Positions 25,318 to 32,800 of a stretch of DNA of 64,000 bases are shown here, piece after piece. Both the position numbers and the translations under genes were made by a program. Under the pieces are notes generated by a model. That model was not told where the DNA came from, did no database searches, and saw nothing but the letters and a program-made list of their open reading frames with translations. Origin of the DNA: Prochlorococcus sp. AG-402-P16 (GTDB lineage Bacteria > Cyanobacteriota > Cyanobacteriia > PCC-6307 > Cyanobiaceae); contig QCJB01000006.1 in assembly GCA_003216295.1 (NCBI GenBank), positions 1 through 64,000 on the forward strand, read 5' to 3'. The stretch's first letter is position 1. Every line of letters begins with the position of its first letter.

Positions 25318-26832
25318 TTAAGGGTTACTTAAATCATTCCATTTACTCTCAAGTTCAGCACCCTTTGTCTCGTCACATTCTCCACCAAGCGAATCAACAA
25401 TTGTACATGTGTTGTGTACTGCTACTGAAACAGTATTACCTTCTAGCATTAGACCATCAACAAAGATCTGATTTCTTGCAATAGGGGTGGAAGTTTGTCT
25501 GCTCAGGTTTTTCAATAGCTTTGAAGGAGGCTTTTGCTCAGCGAATAATACGTTCACGTTTTCTTCTTTCAGCTCAGCTATTACCGTTGAAATAGTCTCT
25601 GGTCTTAGGCTGGAAGAATCACCAAGGAAATCTAATAGACTCAAAGTCTTCAAGCCAAATGCATCTCCGTAATATTCCATCGCTTTGTGCTTAGAAACGA
25701 TTGTCCTTCGATCAGTAGGAATTGTGGCAACTTGTTTTTGAGTCCATAAGTCGAGATCTTCCAAAATAGAATTAACGGCTTGAGTTCTTTCTTTTAAAAC
25801 TTTTTTAGTTTCTCTGTCAAAGAAGCCAATTTTCTTGTTGATATTTTTGGAAATGACATTTCCCATCTTGATGATGTTATGTGGATCATGCCAGATATGA
25901 GGATCTAAACCACCATGATCATGGTGATGATGATGATCGCCTTCATCTGGGACTTGAGCTATCGGTTCAACATCGTCGCCTGAAACATCCTTAAAGAAAT
26001 GTTCATCGGCTTCAAACTCAAAAGGCATATGCTCAGTAAAGAATGCATATTTACCAGCTTTTTTGATTTCTACAGTAAATGTTGTGATGTCTTTCTTCTC
26101 ATTGAATGAAAGAAAATATGCTTTTTCCTGCGCAACAAGTTTGTCATTATTGCGTTTGGTTTCTGAATTCTTAGACCCTAATAATTCTTTAGCAAGCTCT
26201 TCTGATGCTTCAATATCACCAGAGTTGAGAATAACCATTTTCATGGCAGGATCAGCATAGTCTCCATCGACTTTGGCAAAAGACCATTTGTATGTTCCTG
26301 CTGAAAGATCAAAAACACCAGCCCATTCAAAAGCTCCTTCTCCATGGCTATCGCCATGATCATCGTGGTCATCATGATCGTCATGTTTAGCAGCTGAATG
26401 ATCATCCTTAGCAGCCGAATGATCGTCATGATCATCGTGATCGTCATGATGATCGTCTATTTCTATTGCACTTACGCCAACAACAACAGTTAAGGGATTA
26501 TCTAACCATTTTTTAATCGCAGGGGTCATCTCTGAACCAAGTGTAAATACTTGCTTCGCACTTTTTAGCGTTTGAGCTTGCTTCGGAGTGATCTTGACAT
26601 CATGAACATCTTGTTTTCTGTCAATTAAGCAAGTTACGGGCGTTGAGGGTGGTGCAATCGCAGAGACAACATCGCAAACTAATGGCTCTACAGCAACAAT
26701 TGATTTTGTATTTGCCTGTGCTGTTTGATTGATTCCAGAAAATAAAAATGCTCCAGCAACAAGAGAACTTTTCAGAACTGTTTGATTGATTATGGGTTTA
26801 GTCTTTTTTGACTGATTCGAGAAATTCGACAT
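25318..26832 (-). CDS. znuA: Zinc ABC transporter substrate-binding protein ZnuA with large His/Asp-rich and domain insertion
   Basis: VAVEPLVCDVVSAIAPPSTPVTCLIDRKQDVHDVKITPKQAQTLKSAKQVFTLG; GLDPHIWHDPHNIIKMGN; IVSKHKAMEYYGDAFGLK; (DDH)n-rich loop plus FEWAGVF...FTEHMPFEFEADEH segment. Confidence 0.95.
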   Translation of the reverse strand: MSNFSNQSKKTKPIINQTVLKSSLVAGAFLFSGINQTAQANTKSIVAVEPLVCDVVSAIAPPSTPVTCLIDRKQDVHDVKITPKQAQTLKSAKQVFTLGSEMTPAIKKWLDNPLTVVVGVSAIEIDDHHDDHDDHDDHSAAKDDHSAAKHDDHDDHDDHGDSHGEGAFEWAGVFDLSAGTYKWSFAKVDGDYADPAMKMVILNSGDIEASEELAKELLGSKNSETKRNNDKLVAQEKAYFLSFNEKKDITTFTVEIKKAGKYAFFTEHMPFEFEADEHFFKDVSGDDVEPIAQVPDEGDHHHHHDHGGLDPHIWHDPHNIIKMGNVISKNINKKIGFFDRETKKVLKERTQAVNSILEDLDLWTQKQVATIPTDRRTIVSKHKAMEYYGDAFGLKTLSLLDFLGDSSSLRPETISTVIAELKEENVNVLFAEQKPPSKLLKNLSRQTSTPIARNQIFVDGLMLEGNTVSVAVHNTCTIVDSLGGECDETKGAELESKWNDLSNP

Positions 26833-26856: not shown

Positions 26857-26871
26857 CGATAATCATTTTCA
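26857..26871. promoter_or_regulatory. Candidate Zur box in the divergent znuA/znuC promoter
   Basis: CGATAATCATTTTCA: by eye 13/15 to a TGATAATCATTATCA-type palindrome recalled from cyanobacterial Zur boxes. Confidence 0.65.
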
Positions 26872-26921: not shown

Positions 26922-27617
26922 ATGCCTAGCTTGATTGCTGAAAATTTGACATATTCTTATTCAAATAAAATTAAACCTGCCTTAAGCAAGGTTTCTCTAA
27001 AGCTTGAGCAAGGTACTTTGACTGCTCTTGTTGGTCCCAATGGTGCTGGTAAGTCCACATTATTAAGCTTGCTGCAAGGAAGTAGTAAGCCGGATCAAGG
27101 AGAAATTACTGTTGACGGAAAACCACTTAGAAATAATCGATCTCAAGTGGCTTTAATGCCTCAGAGGGGGAAGCTGAATTGGAATTTTCCAATTACTGTT
27201 GAAGGATTAGTTTCTTTAGGTCGAGTCAATCATTCGAAATCAACTTGTTGTGAATTAGAAGCGGCTCTTCAACGTGTTGGAATATCTCATTTAGCAAAAA
27301 GGCGACTTGATTCTTTATCCGGTGGACAGCAACAAAGAGCATTACTCGCAAAAACCTTGATGAATCCTGCCGAAATATTTCTACTTGATGAACCTTGTTC
27401 CGCATTTGATCCCCCCGCAAAGGAAGATTTCCTATTAATCATCCGTCAGTTAGCTGATTCTGGATTGACAGTGTTCGTCAGTAGTCATGATTGGGGAACA
27501 TCATTAAATGCTTATGACAAGGTTGTTGTTCTAGATAAGATTATTTTGGCTTCTGGTAACCCTGAAGAGGTGCAGGAAAAACTTAGTTCAATTAATTATC
27601 TGAGATGGAAAATATAG
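26922..27617 (+). CDS. znuC: Zinc ABC transporter ATP-binding protein
   Basis: GPNGAGKSTLLSLL; LSGGQQQRALLAKTLM; FLLDEP; divergent from znuA. Confidence 0.93.
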   Translation: MPSLIAENLTYSYSNKIKPALSKVSLKLEQGTLTALVGPNGAGKSTLLSLLQGSSKPDQGEITVDGKPLRNNRSQVALMPQRGKLNWNFPITVEGLVSLGRVNHSKSTCCELEAALQRVGISHLAKRRLDSLSGGQQQRALLAKTLMNPAEIFLLDEPCSAFDPPAKEDFLLIIRQLADSGLTVFVSSHDWGTSLNAYDKVVVLDKIILASGNPEEVQEKLSSINYLRWKI

Positions 27618-27643: not shown

Positions 27644-28051
27644 TCAAGCATTCAATCCTTGGGAACAATTTTGGCAGAGGCCAAAGTATTCAAGAGTATG
27701 AAACAACAGCTCGAATTTTTTAGAGGCTTTCTGGGGTATGTGCATTGCTTTGACGGGGCATCCCTGCAATCGAGTAGTTTCTCCGCAGCTTACGCAAGTT
27801 AAATGATGAATATCTCTTTCAACTGGCGCATAAAGTACCTCGCCGTTAGGGAGGTGTCTCGAGCGGATCAAACCTTGCTTTACTAACGCTTGCAAGTTCC
27901 TATATACAGTCGTCAGACCCATTGCCTTTTCACCATTATGAAATTTTCTATGCAGTTCTTGTCCACTCAACTCATCAGTACATCTCCTGAGTTCATTGAG
28001 AAGTTGTTGCTGTCTCTTAGTTATGACAGGCTTGTTTTTATTCATTAGCAA
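27644..28051 (-). CDS. zur: Fur-family regulator, probably Zur
   Basis: TKRQQQLLNELRRCTDELSGQELHRKFHNGEKAMGLTTVYRNLQALVKQGLIRSRHL...HHLTCVSCGETTRLQGCPV...GLCQNC; located within the znu locus. Confidence 0.88.
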   Translation of the reverse strand: MLMNKNKPVITKRQQQLLNELRRCTDELSGQELHRKFHNGEKAMGLTTVYRNLQALVKQGLIRSRHLPNGEVLYAPVERDIHHLTCVSCGETTRLQGCPVKAMHIPQKASKKFELLFHTLEYFGLCQNCSQGLNA

Positions 28052-28098: not shown

Positions 28099-28884
28099 AT
28101 GTCTTTTATCAATACAAATTGGTGGTTAATTCCTCTTCTGATAACTTCTTTTTCAGGAGTGCTTTGCCCTGCCATGGGAACTGTATTGATAACTCATAAA
28201 AGGCTTCTTCAAGTAAATTTAATTTCACACTGTGTTTTGCCAGGACTTGCCTTGGCTATGGCGCTTGGGATTGACCCATCTATTGGAGGTGTCTTAAGCG
28301 GATTAGTGGGAGCTATTGCAGCAGAGAGTTTGACAAATAAAAAAAATCAAAATTATGAAGCTGTAATGAATACAATTCTTGCTGGTTCGATGGGACTTGG
28401 TGTTTTGCTTATACCTCTACTTGGAATCAGGATTGATTTGGAAGCTGTTTTGTTTGGAGATTTATTAACTGCAAATTTGAGCGATTTGTTAAGAACTTTG
28501 ATTGCTTTCTCGGCATTCATTTGCTTAATGCTTTTTGGTTACGACAAGCTTGTTCATATTGGTTTAGATCCAGAAGGAGCTGCTTCAAGTGGCGTTAATG
28601 TGTCTTTTTTAAATTTAGCTCTGGGATTTACCACTGCACTTGTCATTGTTAGCTCAATGTCAGCAGTTGGGGTCATCCTTGTGATTGCGTTACTCTCAAC
28701 ACCAACTTTGTTGGGTTTACAGAAAGCTAGATCTCTGTGGGTTGCTATGGTTCGATCTTCCATATTTGGATTGGCTTTATCGATCATTGGTTTTTCGCTT
28801 GCTATGGTTATGAATTTGCCTCCTGGCCCTCTTATTAGTGTTCTTTGTGTAATTTCATTGATTTTGCTACCAAATAATAGATAG
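28099..28884 (+). CDS. znuB: Zinc ABC transporter permease
   Basis: ABC-3 family TM protein: GTVLITHKRLLQVNLISHCVLPGLALAMALGID...VVSSMSAVGVILVIALLSTPTLLGL. Confidence 0.93.
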   Translation: MSFINTNWWLIPLLITSFSGVLCPAMGTVLITHKRLLQVNLISHCVLPGLALAMALGIDPSIGGVLSGLVGAIAAESLTNKKNQNYEAVMNTILAGSMGLGVLLIPLLGIRIDLEAVLFGDLLTANLSDLLRTLIAFSAFICLMLFGYDKLVHIGLDPEGAASSGVNVSFLNLALGFTTALVIVSSMSAVGVILVIALLSTPTLLGLQKARSLWVAMVRSSIFGLALSIIGFSLAMVMNLPPGPLISVLCVISLILLPNNR

Positions 28885-29044
28885 ATTTATTTTTACTCTT
28901 AATTGCTTCTAAGAGGTGCTTTGTGGATGGATGAAAAGAGATAGCTTCTTAAAGATCAAGAAATCTAAAAATGCTAACGATATGTTTTTGAATTCAATAA
29001 AATATTAATTAATTGGATATTCCCACCCTTTCATTGATTAACTC

Positions 29045-29662
29045 ATGAAGAGAACGCAACTCAATGTAAGTATTGACCCAAAACTTTTAGAAAAGATTAA
29101 AGAGAGTGCGAGGATTTCGGGAAAATCATTGGTTAGTTATGTCTCTGATTGTTTTGTTAATCAAATAGATAATATGCCTGTTGAATCGATAGATTCTCGA
29201 TTTCACACGATTGAACAAAGACTGCAATCAATAGAGAAGAAACTTGACTTTCCTAATTATGAAAGCCATGTCACACCATCTTTTACACCTCATGAATTGC
29301 AGAATTTTAATGAATTCATTAAAGCTGTTTTCAGCAAAGAGTTAAAAAGGAAGGGATATAGATCAATGAAAGAAGCATGGAATGATTTTATAAACCATAT
29401 AAATTGTTTTGAACAATGGAATGAGACATGTTCTTTTAGGCTTAAAGAGTCTCTTTTTATTGAACATGCTGATCCTTTAACAAGCGAAGAAATTAATCAC
29501 CTTAAAGAAGGACAAGTATGTCCTCAACCAATCCGAACAGGGATTATTAATTGGATCAACAATTCAGATAAAGGAGAATGTTGTTGCTCCGATAAAGAGT
29601 TCCCTTCACAGCAGCAAATTTGCGAAAAGGGTTCAATATTAGTTGAAGATATATATTCTTAG
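29045..29662 (+). CDS. Hypothetical protein with ribbon-helix-helix-like N-terminus and Cys cluster near C-terminus
   Basis: N-term MKRTQLNVSIDPKLLEKIKESARISGKSLVSYVSDCFVNQ (RHH pattern); C-term GECCCSDKEFPSQQQICEKG. Confidence 0.65.
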   Translation: MKRTQLNVSIDPKLLEKIKESARISGKSLVSYVSDCFVNQIDNMPVESIDSRFHTIEQRLQSIEKKLDFPNYESHVTPSFTPHELQNFNEFIKAVFSKELKRKGYRSMKEAWNDFINHINCFEQWNETCSFRLKESLFIEHADPLTSEEINHLKEGQVCPQPIRTGIINWINNSDKGECCCSDKEFPSQQQICEKGSILVEDIYS

Positions 29663-29794
29663 ACCAATTAAGATCACTTTTTAAAAGTTAATTAAATCCT
29701 AATTTGTTAAAAAACAGGGAGATGAATTGAGTCGTTTGTAGATATATTGCCAAGGATTTTATACCGCAACTTTAAATTCTTAATTACTTCAAGA

Positions 29795-30235
29795 TTAGTT
29801 AGGGTTGATATGGATTGCACAAGGCATCCATAATTTACCCATCTTATGGACACCATTGCATCCGAGCTTTTTGGCTTCGATCTCTGCCTGAGCTTTGGTT
29901 GGATATGCATATATATTTTTTGACGAAGAATTAGAACGATTGATTGACTCCTGAATAGCATTGTTTTCTGGACTCCATACCTTTAGACCCATGGTTGTTA
30001 TTCCGGCAGAAAATATTCCCATTCCTACTATTGAGGCATTTATTACTCCCATGGCTACAGCACCAATAGAAACGACACCCATGGGAACAATTCCAATGCT
30101 AACAATACCCATGGGAACAATTCCAATGGAAATGAATCCAAGTGGTGCTATGCCAAATGCAATTTTTTTTGGTTTGCTTCCACAATGCGAAGGTGCTTCG
30201 ATATCTTTTTGATTTGTACTATTTTTGGTTGTCAT
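29795..30235 (-). CDS. DUF3721-domain protein with Gly-Ile-Val repeat transmembrane/solenoid region
   Basis: Repeats GFISIGIVPMGIVSIGIVPMGVVSIGAVAMGV; C-term YPTKAQAEIEAKKLGCNGVHKMGKLWMPCAIH. Confidence 0.75.
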   Translation of the reverse strand: MTTKNSTNQKDIEAPSHCGSKPKKIAFGIAPLGFISIGIVPMGIVSIGIVPMGVVSIGAVAMGVINASIVGMGIFSAGITTMGLKVWSPENNAIQESINRSNSSSKNIYAYPTKAQAEIEAKKLGCNGVHKMGKLWMPCAIHINPN

Positions 30236-30250
30236 TTATTGTTCGACAAT

Positions 30251-30508
30251 CTAGTGATGATGGTGATGATCATTGCTTGGCTTGTTATTTTCTTTATCCT
30301 CATGAGCAGAATGACTTTTACAAGGCATCCATTTGTCACCCATTTTATGAGCTCCAGTGCAATTGAAATCCTTGGCTGCTTTTTCGGCTTCTATTTTTGT
30401 CTCAAAAAGAGAGGGAGTACCTTTTGTTTGAGAATTATCTGAACATCCTATTAGTGAAAATGATATAGAAAGAATAATTGTAGAGAGAATAGGCTTGAAT
30501 TTGTTCAT
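30251..30508 (-). CDS. DUF3721-domain lipoprotein with C-terminal His tail
   Basis: Lipobox SLIGC; FETKIEAEKAAKDFNCTGAHKMGDKWMPCKSH; ends NDHHHHH*. Confidence 0.8.
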   Translation of the reverse strand: MNKFKPILSTIILSISFSLIGCSDNSQTKGTPSLFETKIEAEKAAKDFNCTGAHKMGDKWMPCKSHSAHEDKENNKPSNDHHHHH

Positions 30509-30761
30509 TTATCTAGTTTTTTCTAGTACACCTAGTCTCTAGACTAATGAAGCCTATAGCTTTGTCATTAAGTATTTCAGAAAATAAGAATAGACAAGTA
30601 ATTAATTAATCCAACTATTCTTTATCTCTTCTTCTTGAGACTAGATTTCGATGGAAATTGGTTTGCAGTTTTTTCCTGGCAAAGACTAAAAACACAATTT
30701 TTTGTATTCAAAAGCACATTTTTCATACCTTAACAAGCCTGGGAAGCTAGCTTCAGTGGGT

Positions 30762-31991
30762 ATGAATAGTTTTTCTAGTTCTACTAGCTTTTCAAGGCCT
30801 ATGAGACTCTTTGCTCAATTACTCTCTATCCCTGCTGTCTTAGGTTTCATGACTCCAATTGCTGTTCAAGCAGGAGGTGAAAAGCACCAAGGTCATCATG
30901 ATCACCATGGTAGTCATATGAATATGGGAGACTCATATCCCTCAACTATGTTTATGGGTAAAACGACTTTTGTTTTGGGTGGAGTAGATGGCGTGAGCGA
31001 TTCTGGAATGGGTGGAATGGGTGGGATGGGTGGAATGTCTACTACTGACGAAAAGGATGGAACAGTTTTTCATTACGATACAAAGCTAATGTTTATGACC
31101 AGTTTCACAGGTCAAGACATGCTTAAAACTGCTGTTCGTATTGGCAATTTTGGCATGATGGAACCCTTTGGAATGATGGGTGAGGCAAGATTAGATACTG
31201 CTTTCAGTAGTAATGATTCGTTAGAACTTCATAAGGCTTTTTATCAGTTTCCTGTTGGAGATGATATTCATGTAACTTTTGGTCCCAAGCTCCGCCAAGA
31301 TGATTTGCTTGGAGTTTGGCCTAGTGCTTATCCAAGTGATGGAGTTTTGTTTGTCTTGAATCAGGCAGGTGCGAATGATACTTATTCCAAGAAGATGGGT
31401 GCGGGCGCAGGAATTACTTGGTCCCATAAAAAATTAGTTGCCTCTGCACTTTTCGTTTCAGAAGACGCATCAAATTCTTCGATTGGCTTTTTAGCTGATG
31501 AAGGCAAAGACCACATCACCACTCAGTTGGCATGGGTTGATGAGAGATATACTCTTGCAGCTGCATTCACACAGTCTGACAACGGGAGAACTGACAATTC
31601 TCCTGATATTAACGACTACTCCTCTTTCGGGGTCAGTGGTAGCTATCAATTTGGAGACGACTACAGCTTGAGTGGAGGGATAGGATGGAAGAATCCTGAA
31701 AACGATGATTGTCCTGATACTTCTATGAATAAAGTTGAAGATGGAAATACATGGTCTATTGCATTTTTATGGAATAATGCGTTGATTGAAGGTAATAAGT
31801 TTGGTTTTGGTATTGGAACAGCAGAAACTCATAGAGATGATAGTGGTTATGACGATCCTTTAGCTTGGGAAGCTTTTTACGATTTGAAAGTTAACGATAG
31901 TGTCATAGTCACCCCAGCTATCTTTGTTATCGAGAAAGATGGTAAAGAGGACGTTAATGGGGCTTTGGTGAAAACCACTTTTAAATTCTAG
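30762..31991 (+). CDS. Outer-membrane porin-like protein with His/Met-rich N-terminus
   Basis: Signal peptide MRLFAQLLSIPAVLGFMTPIAVQA then GGEKHQGHHDHHGSHMNMGDS; GMGGMGGMGGM; beta-barrel-like end VNGALVKTTFKF; homologous segments to the 6436-7443 porin. Confidence 0.8.
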   Translation: MNSFSSSTSFSRPMRLFAQLLSIPAVLGFMTPIAVQAGGEKHQGHHDHHGSHMNMGDSYPSTMFMGKTTFVLGGVDGVSDSGMGGMGGMGGMSTTDEKDGTVFHYDTKLMFMTSFTGQDMLKTAVRIGNFGMMEPFGMMGEARLDTAFSSNDSLELHKAFYQFPVGDDIHVTFGPKLRQDDLLGVWPSAYPSDGVLFVLNQAGANDTYSKKMGAGAGITWSHKKLVASALFVSEDASNSSIGFLADEGKDHITTQLAWVDERYTLAAAFTQSDNGRTDNSPDINDYSSFGVSGSYQFGDDYSLSGGIGWKNPENDDCPDTSMNKVEDGNTWSIAFLWNNALIEGNKFGFGIGTAETHRDDSGYDDPLAWEAFYDLKVNDSVIVTPAIFVIEKDGKEDVNGALVKTTFKF

Positions 31992-32053
31992 TTTTGAAAT
32001 CCCGTGAGTTCTTGAGGGTTCACTTTTAGATCAGTTGATATTCAAAAAACTTT

Positions 32054-32800
32054 CTAATAATTTTTACCGAAGTTTGATTGCTGTTTAACAAGTTCGAAGA
32101 ACTCCTGCTTCAAGCTGGCATCATGGCGAAAATCACCCCTAACAATTGAGTTGATCATGCTAGTTTCAGGTTCTTTTACTCCTCTCCATTTCATACAATA
32201 ATGTTGAGCTTTAACAAGTATTGCTAGACCTTTGGGTTCACATAATCGCTCTATTTCATCAGCAAGAATCATGACAGCTTCTTCTTGAATGTGTGGCCTA
32301 GAAAAGACCCAATCAGCTACTCTTGCAAATTTTGATATCCCAATAACTTTTTCTCCAGGTTTGATTCCTATCCAACAATCTCCAAGAATTGGAACAAAGT
32401 GATGAGAACATGCGGATCGAACAGTTATTGGTCCAAGTGTATAGATCTCATCTAAATTTCTATCGTTAGGAAAATTAGTTACTTTAGGTTGAGGATGATA
32501 TCTGCCTTTAAATACTTCATTTAAATACATTCTGGAAACGCGTTCTGCAGTTTCTTGAGTGTTGTGGTCATTATCAACATCAATCAATAAAGTTTTGAGT
32601 AGATCCCTAACTCTGGTTGCAACTTCTCTCTCAAGAGTTTCAAGCTCTCCTGGCTGAATGAAATCAGAAATATTATCATTTGCATGAAATCTAGCCCCAT
32701 TGGCTTGTATGCGTTCACGAATTATTTCAGAGACTAATTTGCAAGAAATTTGATCTTTTAAATTATCCTTAATATTCTCATTAGGAGCTGTAGAAGTCAT
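32054..32800 (-). CDS. folE: GTP cyclohydrolase I
   Basis: TLGPITVRSACSHHFVPILGDCWIGIKPGEKVIGISKFARVADWVFSRPHIQEE...VKAQHYCMKWRGVKEP. Confidence 0.97.
   Translation of the reverse strand: MTSTAPNENIKDNLKDQISCKLVSEIIRERIQANGARFHANDNISDFIQPGELETLEREVATRVRDLLKTLLIDVDNDHNTQETAERVSRMYLNEVFKGRYHPQPKVTNFPNDRNLDEIYTLGPITVRSACSHHFVPILGDCWIGIKPGEKVIGISKFARVADWVFSRPHIQEEAVMILADEIERLCEPKGLAILVKAQHYCMKWRGVKEPETSMINSIVRGDFRHDASLKQEFFELVKQQSNFGKNY

Follow-up and report, generated by a model that had tools for sequence, protein, structure and literature searches.

A conserved pair of DUF3721 proteins beside a His-rich porin: a candidate metal-handling module in the cell envelope of picocyanobacteria

In the streptococcal PhtD/AdcAII system, the gene for a zinc-binding histidine-triad protein accompanies that for the extracellular component of a zinc transporter (PMC3842936). 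The locus described here resembles this system in outline, in that a His-rich surface protein is proposed to hand zinc over to a binding protein of the cluster A-I type encoded nearby. It is likened by this outline and not by sequence, and it differs in its 33-residue Cys/His core, its Gram-negative host and its porin partner. In Synechococcus WH8102, the SynZur regulon includes the uncharacterised genes synw0972 and synw0973, which adjoin znuA (PMC9337993). The window, i.e. the whole stretch of 64,000 nucleotides from Prochlorococcus sp. AG-402-P16 that was analysed, likewise possesses znuABC and a zur gene which is an orthologue of SynZur by its best PDB match (7ne9), but its DUF3721 pair has no Zur box nearby. 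DUF3721 (PF12518) is a family without assigned function. Neither DUF3721 nor "GLTT repeat" was named in any paper found by literature search, and the zinc-related literature on Prochlorococcus and Synechococcus could not be mapped to the genes of the pair. Here the family is described from its sequences, with two architectures, a His tail, partner genes for a porin and a ribbon-helix-helix (RHH)-like protein, and an occurrence in phages.

A first-pass annotation of the sequence had proposed two tandem DUF3721 proteins that share a Cys/His signature, and both open reading frames were recovered (Table 1). Both proteins scored far above the curated PF12518 cut-off of 27 bits across the whole 33-position domain, namely 69.0 bits for the 85-aa lipoprotein (E 2.7e-19, domain positions 1-33) and 64.8 bits for the 146-aa fusion (E 5.5e-18, domain positions 1-32). 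The common motif is found literally in each protein (FETKIEAEKAAKDFNCTGAHKMGDKWMPCKSH and YPTKAQAEIEAKKLGCNGVHKMGKLWMPCAIH), both copies possess the C...H...WMPC core, and the Cys/His core is conserved in 225 domain sequences. The lipoprotein has a signal peptide with the lipobox SLIGC, a DUF3721 core at residues 35-67 and the C-terminal end SNDHHHHH, so that the lipobox and the histidine end were correctly read in that annotation. The claimed fusion of the 146-aa copy to a repeat region was borne out by a PF01744 (GLTT) match of 63.9 bits (cut-off 21): the protein has an HCGSKPKK N-terminus, carries a hydrophobic pentapeptide repeat at about residues 24-83 and has its DUF3721 domain at residues 111-142. 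Inspection of the N-terminus of the fusion revealed no obvious signal peptide, which counts against a reading of the locus as a metal module.

Table 1. Positions of the DUF3721 pair, its neighbouring genes and the associated DNA elements in the window.
Feature	Position	Strand	Basis and remarks
DUF3721 lipoprotein, 85 aa	30251..30508	-	ORF and PF12518 match
GLTT-DUF3721 fusion, 146 aa	29795..30235	-	ORF, PF01744 and PF12518 matches
Porin, divergent from the pair	30801..31991	+	NF033921 por_somb; mature N-terminus AGGEKHQGHHDHHGSHMNMG; GMGGMGGMGGM stretch
RHH-like protein, 205 aa	29045..29662	+	Weak RHH matches; candidate CTAG-repeat binder
CTAG direct repeats 5' of the lipoprotein	30513..30542		CTAG at 30513, 30523, 30532, 30539
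CTAG direct repeats, 9-bp period, 5' of the porin	30766..30787		ATAG 30766, CTAG 30775, CTAG 30784
zur, neighbour	27644..28051	-	PF01475, 60 bits; best PDB match 7ne9, E 6.6e-45
znuA, His/Asp-rich loops, neighbour	25318..26832	-	PF01297, 160 bits
znuC, neighbour	26922..27617	+	Identified from ORF translation
znuB, neighbour	28099..28884	+	PF00950, 145 bits at 28138-28860
Zur-box-like palindrome GATAATCATTTTC	26858..26870		Between znuA and znuC; pattern scan, 1 mismatch

These two proteins were the only DUF3721 matches in the window genome (1.59 Mb, 51 contigs, 83% complete). Nearly all genomes of the same genus contain two DUF3721 matches, mostly about 500 bp apart, and both the lipoprotein and the fusion architecture were found again in the loci of relatives that were read. 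Because the pair is conserved across Prochlorococcus, its occurrence by chance is excluded. Three DUF3721 subtypes were distinguished. One is secreted or a lipoprotein and has a His-rich tail, another is the GLTT fusion, and the third has the pattern HGKGLY...CxxVHxNNxxWMPC. At least three His residues among the last six were found in 78 of 108 distinct lipoprotein-type homologues but in only 1 of 85 fusions and in none of 13 proteins of the third form, which identifies the His tail as a conserved trait of the lipoprotein copy. A simple regular expression detected a lipobox-like pattern in 73 of the 108 lipoprotein-type homologues. The repeat region of the fusion was nearly invariant over eight divergent orthologues, its conservation being at least that of the DUF3721 half. 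AlphaFold2 predictions for the fusion, made with eight sequences, gave a pLDDT of about 80-86 for the DUF3721 part and of about 40, which is not confident, for the repeat. In some Prochlorococcus, at eight of the loci, a GLTT-repeat protein of about 80-90 aa without DUF3721 is encoded by a third tandem gene 3' of the pair. At one locus (L214, genome G147) a DUF3721 gene of the third subtype (HMSGIF...CEGIHKNKDKWMPC) has a DUF411-type gene on one side and, on the other, a gene for a short membrane protein with a weak match to PepSY_TM.

Both Cys residues were invariant (100%) in 206 distinct cellular and 19 distinct viral DUF3721 sequences, and in the cellular set the Trp was present in 100%, the first His in about 98% and an additional His, three residues past the second Cys, in 89% of the copies, with WMP nearly invariant; these values are biased upward because a motif-based search supplied part of the loci, further loci having come from a profile search. 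Most viral copies and the third subtype have this last His at another position or lack it, and in a few homologues the core His is replaced by Phe or Tyr while both Cys are kept. The spacing C-x3-H-x8-C-x2-H would be compatible with a metal site; retention of the Cys pair where the first His is lost would also be compatible with a disulfide. In the AlphaFold2 model of the lipoprotein, residues 31-60 reached a pLDDT of about 85-91 and form a strand, a helix (38-48) and a hairpin (54-61), the confident part being a core of about 30 residues only. A fold search with this model gave no significant match in the PDB; the top-ranking structures, none of them significant, were disulfide-rich plant defensins. 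A sequence search of the PDB with the lipoprotein gave no meaningful match, nor did a PHROGs search with the two window proteins return anything informative.

Within the sample of Cyanobiaceae, DUF3721 was found in 223 of 250 genomes (about 89%) and in 38 of 40 genera, with up to seven copies per genome. A phylum-wide draw of 291 genomes contained 37 with DUF3721, every one in this same family, and no profile match was found in 14 named control genomes. The best 80 DUF3721 loci in the genome collection all belonged to picocyanobacterial or cyanobacterial records. Close relatives that carry names were mostly Prochlorococcus single-cell genomes, together with MIT 9302.

The neighbouring genes named in the first-pass annotation, znu and a His-rich porin, were confirmed in that znuA, znuC, znuB, a Zur orthologue and a por_somb-like porin are all present. 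Zur-box-like matches with up to 2 mismatches are common by chance (9 found, 6.7 expected), so that support for the palindrome between znuA and znuC comes from its position. Around 30490-30810 no GATAATNATTATC-like site was found at up to 2 mismatches, and control of the DUF3721 pair by Zur was rejected because of this lack of a Zur box near the pair. The relation of DUF3721 to metal genes elsewhere, on which the annotation had staked its proposal, was surveyed in 37 genomes of the family, in which 81 merged DUF3721 loci were compared with the positions of all ABC-3 metal permeases and Fur-family (FUR) genes. A FUR gene lay within 5 kb of DUF3721 at 20 of the 81 loci (0.97 expected from genome size) and in 8 of 11 genera; a metal ABC permease (ABC-3) did so at 10 loci (0.83 expected) and in 5 of 11 genera. 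This corresponds to an enrichment of about 21x for Fur-family genes and about 12x for metal permeases, in statistics that, like those on co-occurrence below, ignore shared ancestry; genomes of one genus are not independent, and the genus counts are therefore the safer figures. DUF3721 was found near Zur and a znuB-type permease in g1, g33, g32 and g54, and divergent from the best-scoring FUR gene of the genome in g28, g44 and g48. It is moreover part of a second metal cluster in g48, where a ZnuA-type binding protein, HupE/UreJ, an ArsP-type permease and DUF1980 are encoded as well. Since these arrangements differ, they do not represent one inherited block. In the 12 sampled genomes of g37 Prochlorococcus, neither a FUR gene nor a metal ABC permease was found within 10 kb of DUF3721. 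The outcome of the survey was thus mixed but mostly favourable to metal-related neighbourhoods. A fusion or a pair beside a FUR gene and a radical-SAM/DUF3641 gene recurred in Synechococcus-type genomes, at seven loci.

In MIT 9302 and other relatives, what survives of the neighbourhood of the pair is the divergent porin and the RHH-like protein of about 205 aa; at many other loci the pair is kept without either of them. As judged from gene content, the conserved unit is the DUF3721 pair with the divergent His-rich porin and the Cys-rich RHH-like protein, not znu. The best reading of its scope would be the window lineage and several relatives, zinc transport being a lineage-specific neighbour. 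The porin is related to the Som/iron-uptake porin family, which it matched below the cut-off (NCBIfam NF033921 por_somb, 90 bits with a cut-off of 100, E 1.4e-25, residues 93-410). Its start was moved from 30759 to the ATG at 30801 (MRLFAQLL), as inferred from orthologues; the first ATG of the open reading frame (30759-30800) lies upstream of the CTAG repeats. The N-terminus of the porin, HQGHHDHHGSHMNMG, is His-rich. A His-rich N-terminus recurs in five divergent relatives (L103, L110, L095, L191, L094), and it is seen as well where the porin of a relative still has an SLH-like segment.

The RHH-like protein resembles, as we presume, NikR, MetJ and other RHH repressors in that a short N-terminal RHH-like segment is followed by a C-terminal region with conserved Cys residues, and tandem short DNA repeats at target promoters are a feature that we likewise take to be shared with repressors of the NikR/MetJ type. 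It differs from them in that its matches to RHH-type profiles were weak and below the Pfam cut-offs (DUF6364, E 0.0019; RHH_1, E 0.18) and that its C-terminal region matched no Pfam family above cut-off. An alignment of 15 homologues revealed a conserved N-terminal pattern KRTQLNVxIDPxLL and a conserved Cys-rich C-terminal region, CPxPIRTGIINW...GxCCC...FPSQQxICEKG.

Alignment of the spacer between pair and porin from 14 loci demonstrated that CTAG repeats with a period of about 9 bp are conserved at both ends, the rest of the spacer being divergent. The nearest CTAG begins 5 nt before the ATG of the lipoprotein at 30508. The porin-side repeats stop 13 nt before the ATG at 30801 and lie in the porin leader if this is the start. 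The doublet CTAGN4-6CTAG was counted at loci whose sequence could be read for 400 bp upstream of the lipoprotein, a locus being RHH-positive when a homologue of the RHH-like protein lay within 3.5 kb. It was found 5' of the lipoprotein in 32 of 33 RHH-positive loci but in 1 of 68 RHH-negative ones (Fisher p 5e-24, shared ancestry ignored), with a density of 5.3 versus 0.035 per kb. The exact triplet CTAGN5CTAGN5CTAK occurs once in the searched sequence of the window genome, at the porin-side site, and once each at the same site in five complete relatives (G025, G002, G010, G033, G032); G147 likewise has a single copy, in the homologous position. In several genomes this strict triplet was not rarer genome-wide than a reversed control pattern, and the case for an operator therefore rests on position and co-occurrence, not on rarity. 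Upstream of the lipoprotein-side repeats, the alignment contained a conserved TGACAA and a TAATCT-like hexamer, whose position would place the repeats near a transcription start, as expected for a repressor; the closeness of the repeats to the start codons also suggests repression. The CTAG repeats are candidates for elements that join pair, porin and RHH gene into one regulatory unit. A known RNA element in the leaders was rejected, as Rfam gave no match in 28800-32100.

Triplets were also seen about 100 bp upstream of RHH paralogues at two loci (L233 in G114, L235 in G068), and within about 50 bp of the starts of predicted envelope proteins at three others (L222, L239 in G094, L231 in G019), all uncorrected for chance. 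In the window genome itself an RHH-like paralogue (L217, 1143-1736, contig C9) is preceded, close to the contig end, by CTAG repeats at a distance of 85-210 bp. A wider family or regulon of CTAG-repeat RHH regulators may be considered as a lead only.

Taken together, the proposal that the pair takes part in metal capture is partly supported by the conserved core, the His tail confined to the lipoprotein, the His-rich porin and the excess of Fur and permease genes. It did not stand with regard to znu, which is a lineage-specific neighbour; the lack of a Zur box near the pair and the g37 genomes without metal genes nearby count against a metal module, as does the occurrence of DUF3721 in phage proteases without any obvious link to metal uptake. 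The few homologues that lose the core His yet keep both Cys, the outcome of the fold search and the RHH matches below cut-off also weigh on that side. We estimate a probability of roughly 50% that the pair belongs to an envelope metal-handling module of picocyanobacteria. In such a module the DUF3721 core would hold a transition metal, with the two Cys and one or two His residues as ligands. The lipoprotein would be anchored at the periplasmic face of a membrane, where its core and His tail would collect metal entering through the porin, whose own His-rich segment may concentrate the metal at the pore. The metal could then be handed to ZnuA, which is encoded next to the unit in the window lineage, or to another periplasmic binding protein, or it could just be buffered. 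The fusion would present its DUF3721 domain at the membrane through the hydrophobic repeat, and the RHH-like protein probably binds the CTAG repeats. Given the flanking zur and znu genes, zinc would be the likeliest metal at this locus, with cobalt, iron, copper and nickel also possible. A narrower version, which we put forward only tentatively, is a previously undescribed acquisition route from the outer membrane to the periplasm, in which the His-rich porin would feed the His-tailed lipoprotein and its membrane-associated GLTT-DUF3721 partner. Control would lie with a new RHH repressor that senses metal or redox state through its Cys-rich region and has the CTAG repeats as its operator.

The same ligand-rich anatomy of lipoprotein and fusion would equally suit a metal sponge, which would sequester excess zinc, copper or cobalt in the periplasm while the regulator lowers entry through the porin under metal stress, so that the system would protect the cell and not feed it. 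The repeats common to porin and pair would fit this alternative as well, and so would the third DUF3721 subtype beside a DUF411-type gene in one genome, DUF411 being a family found together with copper-resistance genes. However, ABC-3 uptake permeases and Fur/Zur, which mostly belong to the uptake side, are among the neighbours, and the loci that were read showed no efflux pump next to the pair. We consider detoxification unlikely.

DUF3721 was also found in 37 uncultivated viral contigs from IMG/VR (L136-L172). By its translation, the gene on 36 of these contigs encodes what reads as a single type of head-maturation protease, and for two of these 36, profile searches confirmed DUF3721 (58-66 bits) together with Peptidase_S78_2 (PF14550). 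The remaining contig (L172) encodes a different protein with DUF3721, of 264 aa, which matches phrog_32036. A structure comparison with predicted viral proteins returned an XkdF-domain protein (E 0.017, probability 0.95), and the sequenced phages of INPHARED gave no convincing DUF3721 match. The XkdF-type protease has a genuine DUF3721 domain embedded in it, but it is expected to be a cytoplasmic assembly protein of about 340-560 aa and it has no lipoprotein character, His tail or metal neighbours. This reuse outside the envelope indicates a general mini-domain not dedicated to metal capture, and the presence of the domain alone is thus no sign of metal uptake. It also favours the view that DUF3721 is a structural element, held by a periplasmic disulfide or a structural metal, which serves protein contacts in porin assembly, gating or envelope organisation, the metal neighbours reflecting co-regulation with general nutrient uptake. 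The invariance of the two Cys even where His is lost, the cysteine-stabilised folds among the best, non-significant structural neighbours, and the usual presence of the porin where the RHH gene is present would agree with such a role. On the other hand, it leaves unexplained the His tail specific to the lipoprotein, the His-rich N-terminus of the porin and the excess of Fur and ABC-3 genes in unrelated arrangements, and a disulfide is unlikely in phage proteins expected in the reducing cytoplasm. A purely structural function therefore appears doubtful to us. That the unit adjoins zur/znu in the low-light lineage by chance, through inherited gene order without functional tie to metals, is very improbable: it would agree with the units lacking a znu neighbour in other Prochlorococcus (L105, L110, L120, L212) and with CTAG repeats, not a Zur box, as the mark of the unit, but DUF3721 lies independently beside metal permeases or Fur genes in other genera, in differing arrangements and at about 12x and 21x expectation.

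Few photosynthetic cells on Earth are as abundant as Prochlorococcus and marine Synechococcus, and their acquisition of zinc and cobalt, at concentrations that are vanishingly low, still awaits an explanation. DUF3721 provides a concrete candidate, with its presence in about 89% of the sampled genomes of the family, its absence in the sampled rest of the phylum, its ligand-like conservation and its metal-gene neighbours. The shared repeats and the adjacent regulator make the proposed metal-handling module testable with one protein, one short operator and one inducing signal. As read from its genes and repeats, this module points to a mode of trace-metal handling in the envelope of these organisms that had not been described before.
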